A DNA stretch of 5,056 bases, from assembly GCA_018899795.1 (NCBI GenBank), contig JAHIHJ010000219.1, forward strand, positions 1 to 5,056. The letters run 5' to 3'. This stretch comes from Methanobacteriota archaeon (GTDB lineage Archaea > Halobacteriota > Methanosarcinia > Methanosarcinales > Methanoperedenaceae). The notes beneath the pieces are model-generated. The model was given only the letters and a program-made list of their open reading frames with translations, was not told the origin of the DNA and made no database searches. Position numbers and translations under genes: made by a program. Below, one piece after another: positions 1 to 4,995 of the stretch. How positions within the stretch are numbered: the stretch's first letter is position 1; every line of letters starts with the position of its first letter.

Positions 1-98
1 AACTCGAAGCCGGGCAGATCGACGTGGATAAATTCAAGGAAACGGTTGAGAAGCAGAGCGAGAAAATGATCGTGAAGAGAGAGACTGAATCCAGTTAG
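1..98 (+). CDS. C-terminal tail of an unidentified protein (5' partial)
   Basis: The reading frame starting at base 3 is open to a TAG at 96-98 and gives 31 residues beginning LEAGQIDVDKF and ending RETESS. The tail is rich in Lys and Glu (for example KFKETVEKQSEKM) and looks like a charged amphipathic helix, as in the end of a coiled coil. The other two forward frames meet stops at TAA 29-31 and TGA 67-69, so this frame is the best candidate. The 3' end is followed within 30 bases by a hairpin and T-run, which fits a true gene end. Too little is visible to name a family. It lies on the same strand as the AAA gene, but the probable terminator between them argues against one transcript. Confidence 0.6.
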   Translation, partial: LEAGQIDVDKFKETVEKQSEKMIVKRETESS

Positions 99-178: not shown

Positions 179-1972
179 ATGGGCATATCGGATGAATTTG
201 AAGCTCTTCAGCGTAAGGAATTCATAAAGAATAAACAGATCGCTGAGAAAGCCTTTGAAGAGGGGAAATACGATGAGGCAAAAAAGGCATTTACCACAGC
301 TGCGAACGCTGCCAGGAAGATCAGCAATTCAACTTCAGGAAAACAATCAAAAGAAAAATGGCTTCAGCTCTCGAAGAATTATTTCTATGCCTCAGAGCAA
401 TTGAACAAAGGAAAAATACCAGCAGTAAATAAGCCAAAAGAATATGTCCAGATGCCGACAGAAGCTCCGGAGCGGACAGGTGAAACAGGGCAGGAGAAAG
501 AAGAGAATTTCGAGAAATATATTGAAGAGAACCTGATAACATCGAGCACTGTCACCTGGGGCGACATAGCGGGTCTTGAGAACACCAAAGAGACCATCAA
601 GGAATCCATCGTATTAAGCATAATCGAGGGAAAGCCTGAAGCAATAAAGCCCTGGAAAGGGATACTTCTTTTCGGTCCTCCGGGAACAGGCAAGACCCTG
701 CTTGCAGCAGCCACAGCGGGTTCCCTGAGATCCACATTTTTCAATGTTAAAGTGAGCCAGATGTTATCCAAATACTTCGGGGAATCTTCAAAGATAGTAT
801 CAGCCCTGTACAATGTGGCGCGCAAGAAGGCGCCGTCTATCATTTTTCTTGACGAGTTCGATTCTATCGCAATGACAAGATCGGCGGAGATATCAGAATC
901 CTCGCGCAGGGTGCTGTCCACGCTGCTTTCAGAACTGGATGGACTGCAGGATAAGAAATCAAGCAGTTATATTCTCACAATGGCTGCGACAAACACGCCC
1001 TGGGATCTCGACACCGCTGTTCTGAGCCGGTTCCAGAAGAGGATATATGTCCCCATGCCTGATCTTGCTGCGGTCATGGAGATGATAAAGCTCAATACCC
1101 AGAAAAAAGGTATCGAGTTCCAGGGAGACCCGAACGAGATAGCACAGGAATGCGTCTCAAAGCTGTTCGCAGGGCGGGATGTAAGCACGCTGTGCAATGA
1201 AGCTATATGGACGATGGTGCGGGAGCAGAATGTGGGTCTAAGCCAGCTTGCGGACAGGTCGATAGATGATGTCAGGAACTATAATCTTAAGGTGAGACCG
1301 CTTGTTAAATCGGATTTCCAGAAGTCTTTTGAATCTATTGAAAGCGCGGTTAAGCAGCGCGATCTGATGAAGCATGAAGCCTGGGCGCAGGAATACGGGG
1401 GGTACGAACCGAATAAAAAAAAACGACCTGAACTGATCGATAATAAAAAGCAGGCAATGGAAAAGAACAAAAATGAACTTTTAAGACCAATAATTGAAAA
1501 AATGCCTTTTTTGTTAGAAGGTTCTGATATTAAACCTGAGGTTTTCGAAGCAGCAATTAATATTGCTCTGGAGATAGCCCAGGAAGGAAGGGAAGGAAAG
1601 CCTGTTGGCACGGCATTTGTCATGGGGGATAGCGAGAATGTAATGAAGAATTCAAGACAGCTTATTCTTAATCCCTTCGCAGGGCATCCGCAGGAAGAAA
1701 GGATGATCACGCTTCCTGATCTAAAGGATAATGTCAAGGAATTGGCGCAGCTTGATGGTGTTTTTGTGATCAGGGGAGATGGTCTTATTGAGGCTGCGGG
1801 AAGGTATCTGACATCAAATGCCAGCGGCATTAACCTGCCAAAAGGATTCGGGACGAGGCATTCTTCGGTTGCGGCTATTACTATGGCAACGAATTCTATT
1901 GGTGTTGTGGTTTCGCAGAGCGGGGGAGGGATACGAGTGATCAAGAAGGGGAGGATTGAAGCGAAGATATAG
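179..1972 (+). CDS. MIT-like + Vps4/katanin-type AAA ATPase fused to a C-terminal DisA_N (diadenylate cyclase-like) domain
   Basis: Cytoplasmic, 597 aa, no signal or membrane helix. Residues ~5-78 form a three-helix MIT-like region (AEKAFEEGKYDEAKKAF), which in Vps4/CdvC binds ESCRT-III tails. Residues ~124-409 are a meiotic-clade AAA domain: Walker A GPPGTGKT 166-173, pore loop SKYFGES with aromatic Y199, Walker B IIFLDE 221-226, sensor 1 N272. A Vps4-like C-terminal helix (residues ~379-409) ends at EYGGY. The arginine-finger position reads VLSRF (281-285), so only R284 of the usual Arg pair is kept. After a Lys-rich linker, residues ~455-597 resemble the DAC fold: GTAFVMGD 477-484, QLILNPF 494-500, DGV 526-528 for the canonical DGA, GTRHS 558-562 for GTRHR, then VVSQSGG where VSEE is usual. 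The fold call is firm. Cyclase activity is uncertain because three active-site motifs are altered, and it may instead bind a cyclic dinucleotide. The next gene starts 65 bases on. Confidence 0.88.
   Translation: MGISDEFEALQRKEFIKNKQIAEKAFEEGKYDEAKKAFTTAANAARKISNSTSGKQSKEKWLQLSKNYFYASEQLNKGKIPAVNKPKEYVQMPTEAPERTGETGQEKEENFEKYIEENLITSSTVTWGDIAGLENTKETIKESIVLSIIEGKPEAIKPWKGILLFGPPGTGKTLLAAATAGSLRSTFFNVKVSQMLSKYFGESSKIVSALYNVARKKAPSIIFLDEFDSIAMTRSAEISESSRRVLSTLLSELDGLQDKKSSSYILTMAATNTPWDLDTAVLSRFQKRIYVPMPDLAAVMEMIKLNTQKKGIEFQGDPNEIAQECVSKLFAGRDVSTLCNEAIWTMVREQNVGLSQLADRSIDDVRNYNLKVRPLVKSDFQKSFESIESAVKQRDLMKHEAWAQEYGGYEPNKKKRPELIDNKKQAMEKNKNELLRPIIEKMPFLLEGSDIKPEVFEAAINIALEIAQEGREGKPVGTAFVMGDSENVMKNSRQLILNPFAGHPQEERMITLPDLKDNVKELAQLDGVFVIRGDGLIEAAGRYLTSNASGINLPKGFGTRHSSVAAITMATNSIGVVVSQSGGGIRVIKKGRIEAKI
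1415..1423 (+). other. A9 homopolymer at the AAA/DAC border (possible slippage site)
   Basis: Nine A residues encode K413-K415, four residues after the end of the Vps4-like C-terminal helix (Y409) and before the linker to the DAC domain. One base of slippage gives a stop almost at once in either direction: TGA 1429-1431 in the -1 frame and TGA 1434-1436 in the +1 frame. The short product would be about 418 residues, close to an ordinary Vps4/CdvC ATPase. Whether slippage happens is inference. Confidence 0.4.
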
Positions 1973-2037: not shown

Positions 2038-4002
2038 TTGCCTGATATCGAAATAAAACGCGGATATGAAGTCCTTCCTGACAATAATATCAGATTTGGT
2101 ATCAGGATAACCAACATCAGCGATCTTGCCATATTTGATGTGGAGGTCATTCTTGATTTTCCCGAAACCCTCTTCAAACTTGAAGGGGAGCGGTTGCAAA
2201 AAATCGGTGTCATCCCCTCTGCCAGCGCCCGAACCGCAGAGTTCGTATTAAAGCCGCTTGGCTGCGTGCATAAAGTCAATATCGAGGCGCTCATAACCTA
2301 CCGTGACGCAAAGTCAAAGAAGTACAGGATTGACATGCATCCCAAGGAGGTGCACTGCGTATGTCCTTTCCTGAAAGGGAAGAAGATGCCAAAGCTTGAG
2401 TTCCTTGAACTTTCAGGCGCAGGTCATTCTGCCGAGATGGGGCTGAATTTTAAGGGTGTAACTGTTGAGCGGCTCACCTCATTTCTTGTACAGACCTGCA
2501 AGAGCAGGCATTATAAGGTAGATGATTTCTCAATAGACGGCGGGAGGATGCTCTATCTTGCCAGTGAGTCCATCGGGGAGAAGGCATACTACCTTTTGAC
2601 TGCCCTCATCAAAGAAGAAGACGATCTGACCCAGGTGATGCTGAGGGCTGTTTCTGATAAGCCGCATGGATTGAACGGTTTCCTGAACGAGACTGTAGCT
2701 GACCTGCGGCATGTGGTGAGCGCTGTGCGGTCGGCTCAGGAGATAGGGGTGATAAAGAAAGAGCAGGTCATTAATATCATAGATTCTGTTGTGCAGAGGA
2801 CTACGTTTGCCGGAGGGGAGGGTGGAGCATCAGTTAATATTAAGGACAGTGTGGTGCAGCGCACTGAATTTAAAGGGGATGAGGAGAGAAAGAGGCGCGA
2901 GGAGGAAAGGCGAAGTAAGGAAAGGGAAGAACAGGAGAGACTGCGCAGGGAGAGGGAGGAAGATGCACAGGCTCAGAGGGAAAAAGAAGATGAAGAGCGT
3001 CGGCGCAGGGAAGAAGAGGAAAGAGCAAGGGAAGAAGCTGAAAGGCGCAGGATTGAAGAGGAACAGAGGCGGGAAAAGGAAGATAAGCGCGCGCGGATTG
3101 AGCAGGGGGAAAAATCCTCAGGTGGGAAATGGTTTTATGCAGTGATTATAATATTTGGAGTACTGGCTCTGGGCTGGTATGGTACCCAGGATTCAAACAA
3201 TCCCGCTATCTCTACTCCTCAAAAAACTACTTCTTCTGTAACTACCACACCTGTAATGACATCGAAAGCGACCCCATCTGTTGCAGCAGTAGTGACAGCT
3301 TCCGCAGACCAGAAGACTTACACCAACTCCATCGGCATGGAGTTCGTCATGATACCGGCAGGCGAGTTTGACATGGGCTCGCCATCGAATGAGAAGAACA
3401 GGGATAGTGATGAAGGTCCAGTCCACCGCGTGAAAATCTCAAATGCATTCTACATGGGCAAATATGAGGTTACGCAGAAACAATGGCGCGATGTCATGGG
3501 AAACAACCCCTCATCTGACAAAGGCGATAACCGTCCGGTTGAAATGGTTTCATGGAATGATGTTCAAGATTTTATCAAGAAGCTCAATGAGAAAGAAGGT
3601 GGGAACAAATATCGTCTTCCTTCAGAGGCAGAATGGGAATATGCCTTGCGTGCAGGCACTAAGACAAGGTATTCCTTTGGCGATGATGAATCAAACCTCG
3701 GCGATTATGCCTGGTATTATTCAAACTCTGGCGGAATAACTCGCGGTGTTGGTCAGAAGAAGCCTAATCTATGGGGTCTGTACGATATGCATGGGAATGT
3801 TTGGGAAATGGTGCAGGATAACTGGCATAGCGATTATAGCGGTGCGCCCACTGATGGAAGTGCATGGGAAGGAAGTGGCTCCGTCCGGGTTGTTCGGGGC
3901 GGCTGGCTGAACACCATTGAGGGCTGCCGGTCAGCGAATCGCGACGAACTCAACCCGGGCCGCTTCAGCGACGTCGGCTTCCGCCTTGTGAGGGACGTGT
4001 AG
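2038..4002 (+). CDS. Membrane-anchored FGE-sulfatase-fold protein with appendage-like N-terminus, coiled coil and one TM helix
   Basis: 654 aa from a TTG start. Residues ~1-105 look like an Ig-type beta sandwich (FGIRITNIS, VEVILDF, AEFVLKPLG). Residues ~118-240 are an alpha/beta region (MLYLAS 171-176, QVMLRAVSD ~199-207); the pair resembles the sandwich-plus-platform order of adaptin/coatomer appendages. DSVVQRT occurs twice (249-255, 270-276). Residues 281-356 are a nearly pure Glu/Arg/Lys coiled coil. W365-G382 is a single membrane helix, with charged residues before it and a Thr/Ser/Pro linker (~383-425) after, predicting N-inside, C-outside. Residues ~427-654 are an FGE-sulfatase domain: NSIGMEFVMIPAGEF, RLPSEAEWEYA, HGNVWE 585-590, VVRGG 618-622, VGFRLV 646-651. 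Catalytic FGE cysteines are absent; the only Cys in this C-terminal section, C630, aligns elsewhere. A ligand-binding sensor is more likely than sulfatase activation. The C-terminal ~100 bases are unusually GC-rich. Confidence 0.88.
   Translation: MPDIEIKRGYEVLPDNNIRFGIRITNISDLAIFDVEVILDFPETLFKLEGERLQKIGVIPSASARTAEFVLKPLGCVHKVNIEALITYRDAKSKKYRIDMHPKEVHCVCPFLKGKKMPKLEFLELSGAGHSAEMGLNFKGVTVERLTSFLVQTCKSRHYKVDDFSIDGGRMLYLASESIGEKAYYLLTALIKEEDDLTQVMLRAVSDKPHGLNGFLNETVADLRHVVSAVRSAQEIGVIKKEQVINIIDSVVQRTTFAGGEGGASVNIKDSVVQRTEFKGDEERKRREEERRSKEREEQERLRREREEDAQAQREKEDEERRRREEEERAREEAERRRIEEEQRREKEDKRARIEQGEKSSGGKWFYAVIIIFGVLALGWYGTQDSNNPAISTPQKTTSSVTTTPVMTSKATPSVAAVVTASADQKTYTNSIGMEFVMIPAGEFDMGSPSNEKNRDSDEGPVHRVKISNAFYMGKYEVTQKQWRDVMGNNPSSDKGDNRPVEMVSWNDVQDFIKKLNEKEGGNKYRLPSEAEWEYALRAGTKTRYSFGDDESNLGDYAWYYSNSGGITRGVGQKKPNLWGLYDMHGNVWEMVQDNWHSDYSGAPTDGSAWEGSGSVRVVRGGWLNTIEGCRSANRDELNPGRFSDVGFRLVRDV
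2767..2871 (+). repeat. Tandem DSVVQR motif inside the FGE anchor protein
   Basis: Residues 244-257 (VINIIDSVVQRTTF) and 265-278 (SVNIKDSVVQRTEF) are an imperfect duplication with a 21-residue period. It links the appendage-like region to the coiled coil. The DNA copies have drifted at third positions while the core DSVVQRT is unchanged, which suggests selection on the protein. I recall similar short DSVVQR-type motifs in other archaeal proteins but know of no assigned function. Confidence 0.75.
2878..3105 (+). other. Purine-rich low-complexity tract encoding the charged coiled coil
   Basis: The + strand is almost all A and G over about 230 bases because it encodes Glu, Arg and Lys (GAG, GAA, AGG, AAG, with some CGC). 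This opens a second forward frame through 2789-3145 that is only a by-product of the base bias. The helix predicted here (residues 281-356) would be long enough to act as a stalk or dimerisation arm just inside the membrane. Confidence 0.7.
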
Positions 4003-4203: not shown

Positions 4204-4995
4204 ATGAGAAATATAAACATAAACGAAGAGATTGAAACAGAGCAGAAAATCATTACCAATTCCATCGGTATGAAATTCACGCTTATCCCGGAAGGTGAGT
4301 TCATGATGGGTTCAGAAGAAACTGATGATGAAAAACCTGTGCATAAGGTAACGATAAGCAAACCGTTCTATCTTGGTGTCTATCCGGTGACCCGGCGAGA
4401 ATGGAAAGCCATTATGAAACATAATCCTCCGGGTTTCAGGGGCGGCGACCTGCCTGCAGAGACAATCTCATGGTTTGATGTTCAGGGATTTATTAGAACA
4501 CTTAATGATATAGAAGGCACAAACAAGTATCGTCTCCCTTCAGAGGCAGAATGGGAGTATTCTGCAAGAGCCGGTACGATAACACGATATTCTTTTGGTG
4601 ATGATGAATCCGGACTTAATGAATATGCATGGTATGTTGAGAACTCCGGGTCAAGAGCACCTAAGAAAGGAGATTTTTTTGGATATGACAAAAATGACTG
4701 GGAAGAACTTAAATGGAAGGGAAAAACACATCCCGTCGGCGAGAAGAAGCCAAATCCACGGGGACTGTATGATATTCATGGTAACGTCTGGGAATGGGTG
4801 AAAGATAAATGGCATGATGATTATCAAGATGCTCCGGTTGATGGAAGTGAATGGGAAGGTAATGATTTCTTCCAGATCGTTCGCGGTGGCAGCTGGAGCA
4901 GCTTCGGCGGGTACTGCAGGTCGGCGGTACGTACGCGTGTTTTCCCCACCATCCGTTCCGACGGCATTGGCTTTCGTCTTTTAAGGATTTCGTAG
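4204..4995 (+). CDS. Stand-alone FGE-sulfatase-fold (C-type-lectin-like) protein
   Basis: 263 aa, almost entirely one FGE-sulfatase domain (residues ~17-263) after a short charged N-terminus; no signal peptide or membrane helix, so probably cytoplasmic. Visible family motifs are NSIGMKFTLIPEGEF, FYLGVYPVTRREW, RLPSEAEWEYSARAG, HGNVWEW 192-198, IVRGGSW 225-231 and IGFRLL 255-260. It is a paralogue of the C-terminal domain of the preceding gene, with long near-identical blocks at both protein and DNA level, but carries an insertion of about 24 residues before the HGNVWE motif (GDFFGYDKNDWEELKWKG). Only one Cys (C238) lies in the C-terminal section, at a position that does not match the catalytic cysteines of true FGE, so sulfatase activation is unlikely. 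It may bind a peptide or ligand. G+C counted by hand rises from 42 of 100 bases (4781-4880) to 63 of 100 (4881-4980). Confidence 0.85.
   Translation: MRNININEEIETEQKIITNSIGMKFTLIPEGEFMMGSEETDDEKPVHKVTISKPFYLGVYPVTRREWKAIMKHNPPGFRGGDLPAETISWFDVQGFIRTLNDIEGTNKYRLPSEAEWEYSARAGTITRYSFGDDESGLNEYAWYVENSGSRAPKKGDFFGYDKNDWEELKWKGKTHPVGEKKPNPRGLYDIHGNVWEWVKDKWHDDYQDAPVDGSEWEGNDFFQIVRGGSWSSFGGYCRSAVRTRVFPTIRSDGIGFRLLRIS

Follow-up and report, generated by a model that had tools for sequence, protein, structure and literature searches.

A Vps4-type AAA ATPase joined to a diadenylate cyclase domain in archaea of the Methanoperedenaceae

Gene content of the window and domains of the fusion protein

The window analysed here is the whole 5,056-nucleotide stretch of contig JAHIHJ010000219.1 (assembly GCA_018899795.1), from an archaeon of the Methanoperedenaceae. 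It holds, on the plus strand, the 3' end of a coiled-coil gene, an open reading frame (ORF) of 597 aa without internal stop (positions 179–1972), and two genes for FGE-sulfatase-domain proteins. The ORF, referred to below as the fusion, joins an MIT-like N-terminus, an AAA module with Vps4_C and a diadenylate cyclase (DAC) domain. A sequence-only reading of the window had proposed these domains in this order, and identities and order were both borne out, by Pfam for AAA, Vps4_C and DAC and by fold and profile only for the MIT part. The fusion is confirmed as a real and unexpected domain combination. No description of a Vps4-type ATPase–DAC fusion was found in the titles and abstract starts of the open-licence papers that the searches listed, and one may exist elsewhere.

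The Vps4/katanin/spastin-type AAA module with Vps4_C spans residues 106–410 (494–1408, plus strand). Pfam AAA was matched at residues 162–292 (127 bits, E 8.1e-37) and Vps4_C at residues 361–407 (30.2 bits, cut-off 21.3). With the CdvC equivalog model NF041006 the protein scored 182.7 bits, below the 650-bit cut-off. When the whole fusion chain was used for a fold search, the matches were filled by AAA chains. Vps4-type motors dismantle membrane-shaping filaments, and Vps4 and katanin form hexamers.

The MIT-like part covers residues 3–76 (185–406, plus strand). No MIT domain was found in the fusion protein by Pfam, so that this part of the sequence-only reading stands on other grounds: residues 3–76 were modelled by AlphaFold2 as a three-helix bundle, and a profile of the N-terminus (8 fusion and 23 AAA-only rows) was aligned by hhalign with the Pfam-called MIT N-termini of MIT-DAC relatives at probability 90 (E 1.6e-6). 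With each of two other domains, that profile gave probability 0.1. A profile of the 8 fusion rows, lacking the AAA-only rows, reached probability 48.9 over only 22 columns.

The diadenylate cyclase domain

The DAC domain occupies residues 447–597 (Pfam 467–592; positions 1517–1969, plus strand). Its earlier assignment to residues 455–597 held, as PF02457 was matched at residues 467–592 with 61.1 bits against a curated cut-off of 27 (E 9.8e-17). A sequence search of the PDB with the C-terminus returned 18 matches at E up to 1, of which the 13 below 0.01 were all diadenylate cyclases (best match 6hvl, E 6.6e-6). The DacZ equivalog model NF041371 gave 116.3 bits over residues 447–593, covering model positions 118–261 only (cut-off 430).

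Bacterial DACs carry the motifs DGA and RHR. The corresponding residues of the fusion are D526-G527 (1754–1759, plus strand; DGV) and R560-H561 (1856–1861, plus strand; RHS). Both pairs were invariant in 16/16 fusion rows (11 distinct proteins), as were T and S-Q-S-G; P0002, which was outside this count, agreed in a separate alignment. For comparison, 47 rows of 270–500 aa were picked by length (mostly DacZ-like, with at least 4 PAS-DAC proteins among them); D was found in 47/47, G in 47/47, R in 46/47 and H in 47/47. The residue after R-H, Ser in the fusion, was A in 17 of these rows, L in 9, V in 5, R in 5, S in 3, N in 3 and others in the rest. Because this position varies across the 47 rows, the third residue of RHR is, on this alignment, not defining in archaea. 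By the same comparison DGV and RHS represent the normal archaeal form rather than decay. A decayed DAC was ruled out, since DGV and RHS match the archaeal pattern and D-G and R-H are kept.

Between the window and loci L001, L002 and L003, dN/dS in the DAC was 0.023, 0.099 and 0.076, respectively. In the AAA it was 0.055 against L001 and 0.047 against L003 (dS was saturated against L002). The linker at residues 411–446 was looser (0.581, 0.354 and 0.195 against L001, L002 and L003). Judged by these ratios, the DAC is under purifying selection. Given the archaeal-type motifs and the invariant catalytic Asp and Arg-His, the cyclase is probably active; Haloferax volcanii DacZ is described as active with Mn (PMC6741144, in part).

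The DAC might instead be a regulatory sensor of ATP or of cyclic di-AMP (c-di-AMP), with messenger from the other DACs of the cell gating the ATPase; we consider this somewhat unlikely. Two to three DACs were found in each of G001–G004 by a PF02457 search, and the matches listed include a standalone DAC for 30 of the 31 genomes in the genus; a supply of c-di-AMP therefore exists. The DAC is, moreover, attached to an ATPase, and the close relatives of that ATPase are without one. Enzyme-derived sensors, however, often lose some active-site residues, whereas in the fusion the active-site columns checked show the same conservation as in other archaeal DACs.

Conservation of the fusion and the A9 run

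In the best 10 of 120 homologues listed (P0002–P0011; 75–95% identity, 596–622 aa), AAA and DAC lie in one ORF in 10/10, the alignment with the window protein runs end to end, and Vps4_C is listed for 5/10. Locus L001 has the same architecture as the window; L002 and L003 are apparently the contigs from which P0008 and P0005 derive. The fusion is thus present in Candidatus Methanoperedens (P0003; loci L002 and L003), the nearest named relatives of the window, and in uncultured relatives; the window is accordingly taken to come from a Methanoperedens relative.

The linker between AAA and DAC contains a run of nine A (1415–1423, plus strand), at which a frameshift from a sequencing or assembly error might have joined two genes, as the sequence-only reading had cautioned. 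This has next to no probability: the fusion is a single ORF in L001 and in all ten of the database proteins above, it recurs in other assemblies, the run is also nine A in L001, L002 and L003 (4/4 DNA sequences with the window), and a second fusion (fusB, below) has no A run longer than 6.

An A9 run acts as a slippage site in Thermus dnaX. A wider proposal is a euryarchaeal ESCRT-like machine with c-di-AMP output on ring assembly, in which programmed slippage at A9 would yield a short MIT-AAA and the full MIT-AAA-DAC product. Read out of frame from the A9 run, the sequence reaches a stop 2 to 19 codons after the third Lys position, and a one-base slip would terminate the protein shortly behind the AAA; elsewhere in the scanned loci, all-AAA Lys-Lys-Lys windows numbered 2/29 (by subtraction). 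Slippage is, however, opposed by several observations. AAA is used in all four sequences at 19 of 40 shared Lys codons, giving a naive chance of about 0.1 for three in a row; the four genes with A9 are related; P0011 has K-K-N at the site; and fusB lacks a comparable A run. We regard the proposal as doubtful, and quite unlikely as a whole.

A second fusion and exchange of partners

Among the 31 genomes of the genus, the fusion found in the window (fusion A) was present in three (G001, G002 and G003) and fusB, a second MIT-AAA-DAC protein, in one (G012; L111 9218–10897, G012:C15). The MIT-AAA part of fusB shares 73% identity with standalone proteins of G333–G336, and its AAA grouped with a different AAA lineage (SH-aLRT 100, with long branches in a quick tree). 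Its DAC was placed outside the common MIT-DAC clade, as sister to the fusion-A DACs (SH-aLRT 83, modest). Trees were quick and made from hand-picked rows (34 rows for AAA; 127 of 237 rows for DAC). Since DACs of the same subclade are joined to two MIT-AAA lineages, DAC and MIT-AAA appear to have been combined on two occasions.

Besides the DAC, which is paired with two ATPases, fusB has its downstream partner in common with two of the four loci of fusion A. Over 297 aa, the gene that follows fusB shares 82% identity with the one next to fusion A in L001, and a gene of this type is also found in L003; in the window and L002 the downstream gene is of a different type, only 23–27% similar. In lineage A the C-terminal partner varies, being absent (P0012, P0013), a DAC, or HEAT repeats. 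Proteins with AAA and HEAT-like repeats (L112 106–1755, L113 7015–9507 and L114 1239–4034) were nested with the fusion-A AAAs, and Pfam HEAT models matched P0058–P0061. In P0122 and P0123 a DAC of the fusion-type subclade is carried by another, helical N-terminus of ~110 aa, in which no Pfam family scored over cut-off.

In the AAA tree, whose rows do not include P0002 and L001, the nearest to the window is P0003 (94%). The DAC of P0003 is only 80% identical to that of the window, which groups with L001. An AAA nearest to P0003 with a DAC that groups with L001 suggests domain-level recombination.

The upstream coiled-coil gene

Directly upstream of the fusion, positions 3–98 (plus strand, frame 2) hold the last 31 codons and stop of a coiled-coil gene (LEAGQIDVDKFKETVEKQSEKMIVKRETESS, then stop). 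The window starts inside this gene, which encodes ~205 aa and whose family is labelled ESC208 here (our own name). A near-identical C-terminus is encoded at L002:223–846 and L003:7992–8600, and the family has 93 protein-database matches. Among 185 genomes of the order a match was found in 5, one of them weak. In 4/4 genomes with a strong match (G002, G003, G328 and G347), ESC208 lies directly upstream of a lineage-A MIT-AAA gene, at ~85–100 bp; the AAA is DAC-fused in G002 and G003 and not in G328 and G347. In G001 the fusion is at a contig edge.

With the other MIT-AAA lineage, a ~190-aa coiled-coil gene was found within ~250 bp upstream in 26 of 37 genomes with a match (our own pairing of coiled-coil and MIT-AAA search rows), and farther off, on another contig or as a fragment in the remainder. 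The copy in G296 is weakly Snf7-like. A gene of this ~190-aa family, the partner family of the fusB lineage, lies ~12 kb from fusB on the same contig. On the contig of the fusion in G002 there is a separate pair of coiled-coil and MIT-AAA genes without DAC (L145, G002:C44:48987–50647).

A coiled-coil gene followed by MIT-AAA is a recurring layout, as it was found with both MIT-AAA lineages, and archaeal Snf7/VPS4 gene pairs are described with a like layout (part of PMC11237479). By this analogy of gene layout, ESC208 is proposed to resemble an ESCRT-III partner, and is a candidate polymer partner of the ATPase.

Sequence comparisons with Snf7 gave little. Of the 42 Pfam families obtained for 56 ESC208 members, the first 25, which were listed, did not include Snf7, and PF03357 (Snf7) had no match in G002, which has ESC208, with a Sulfolobus control also below cut-off. 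The ESC208 profile and a coiled-coil protein of L191 gave a tblastn-type match (E 5e-4, 21% identity), a weak bridge, and probability 19 by hhalign (P 0.0012). ESC208 was compared by hhalign with two archaeal Snf7-like families using reversed-sequence controls; the two families were marginally alike (global P 2.3e-4; 0.19 reversed). When one of the two was used for a sequence search of the PDB, neither CHMP nor Cdv chains were retrieved. ESCRT-III-like proteins are mentioned for some Borgs (PMC12660748, in part), and a survey states that Cdv domains in Euryarchaeota form no common functional system (PMC8970359, in part).

Downstream genes and neighbourhood

The gene cluster of the fusion, with the coiled-coil gene upstream and FGE-domain genes downstream, was absent from the sequence-only reading. 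The first downstream gene (2038–4002, plus strand; TTG start as listed) encodes an N-terminal domain with 64% identity to L002:5983–7602 and 51% to genes of L003 and L111, an R/E-rich stretch, an apparent transmembrane segment (by eye) and an FGE-sulfatase domain. The second (4204–4995, plus strand) was assigned as an FGE-sulfatase-domain protein by Pfam. No Rfam match was found within the window.

The last ~35 codons of both FGE domains read CRSAxR...GFRL with very variable residues between. Variable regions of diversity-generating retroelements (DGRs) look like such variable C-terminal stretches. A DGR origin of the FGE genes is unsupported: no DGR-type reverse transcriptase was recognised by eye among the 8 RVT_1 matches of four related genomes, and a search of DNA sequences with the 3' end of the gene gave only partial matches of 71–90%.

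The fusion might be central to a conflict (defence) system, with FGE/C-type-lectin-like sensors of invaders, the AAA as transducer and c-di-AMP as alarm. The two FGE-domain genes downstream fit such a role, as do the scattered distribution and the exchange of partners (AAA-DAC, AAA-HEAT, helical domain-DAC). FGE domains, which are a subtype of C-type lectin, are described as being targeted by DGRs in putative conflict systems of bacteria that contain STAND NTPases, and fusions of lectin and AAA as common DGR targets in bacteria of the candidate phyla radiation (both from part of PMC10907252). PADLOC IetA models matched the AAA of both fusions, but these matches reflect general AAA/DAC similarity, and none of 8 neighbour proteins matched any PADLOC family; the DGR-type reverse transcriptase is also missing among the RVT_1 matches above. 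We judge a defence role unlikely. Mobile copies were not confirmed in viral contigs, and 0/758 matching plasmid records covered 80% of the fusion protein.

A motif like I-x-D-S-V-V-Q-R-S is shared by several cluster proteins, among them the 2038–4002 protein, L111 8347–9114 and L003 6386–7708; a zinc-ribbon protein is included. Linked genes for a regulator that we read as helix-turn-helix-like and a protein of ~135–195 aa lie within ~4 kb of MIT-AAA in L189, L190, L003, L112, L113 and L146, and this holds for any C-terminal partner of the MIT-AAA.

Proposed mechanism and significance

We give about an even chance to the fusion being a Vps4-type filament-remodelling ATPase with its own c-di-AMP synthase, the assembly of which drives, or reports through, c-di-AMP. 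From the observed architecture, motifs, selection and gene order we infer activity and coupling to a polymer. The AAA would form a hexamer like those of Vps4 and katanin, the MIT-like bundle would bind the tail at the C-terminus of the coiled-coil protein encoded upstream, an ESCRT-III-like polymer on this model, and ATP hydrolysis would dismantle that polymer. The aspartate of DGA works on an ATP bound by another DAC (PMC6741144, in part); ring assembly on substrate could therefore bring DACs together and switch on synthesis. The c-di-AMP made would report remodelling, and the neighbouring FGE-domain proteins would be a likely input or client at the envelope.

Homology of ESC208 to ESCRT-III was not established by Pfam, PDB profile, Foldseek, VIA or hhalign. 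The direction from ATPase to cyclase is the weakest step; in the reverse arrangement, c-di-AMP sensed by the DAC could govern the ATPase.

To our knowledge, little is known of the control of archaeal c-di-AMP synthesis. A motor–cyclase fusion offers a direct handle on this control and on the role of Cdv domains in Euryarchaeota, and a single protein in which the remodelling of filaments can be assayed alongside second-messenger output. In a methane-oxidising archaeon it could tie filament remodelling to intracellular signalling.

Comparison with known systems

DisA shares the DAC fold with the fusion, and in DisA a substrate-binding part controls the DAC; it senses DNA junctions through helix-hairpin domains, which were not found in the fusion by Pfam. 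In REC-PAS-DAC proteins of Methanomicrobiales (L006) the DAC is likewise carried on a large regulatory N-terminus, but the sensor there is a response-regulator/PAS part, in place of the ATPase of the fusion. The meiotic-clade AAA proteins Vps4/CdvC, katanin and spastin differ by the absence of the C-terminal DAC, and the partner gene of the fusion, in contrast to that of Vps4/CdvC, is not recognisable as Snf7. The DAC of the fusion is closest to the DacZ/CdaZ (DacY) class, with D-G, R-H and S-x-S-G common to both. The fusion nevertheless scores far below the DacZ equivalog cut-off, and has MIT-like and AAA parts where DacZ/CdaZ has a PK_C-like N-terminal domain.

MIT-DAC proteins of Methanoperedens (~250 aa) have an MIT-like N-terminus and an archaeal DAC as in the fusion, but lack the AAA and form a separate DAC clade (SH-aLRT 99). 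At their loci the next gene is often DUF1015-like, unlike the coiled-coil/FGE cluster of the fusion; this downstream family had 15 members in 22 loci scanned (L004, L013, L014, L016 and others), the L004 copy being DUF1015 by Pfam. Because such proteins are common in Methanoperedens, the link of MIT and DAC is, by these architectures, not unique to the fusion; the AAA between them is.
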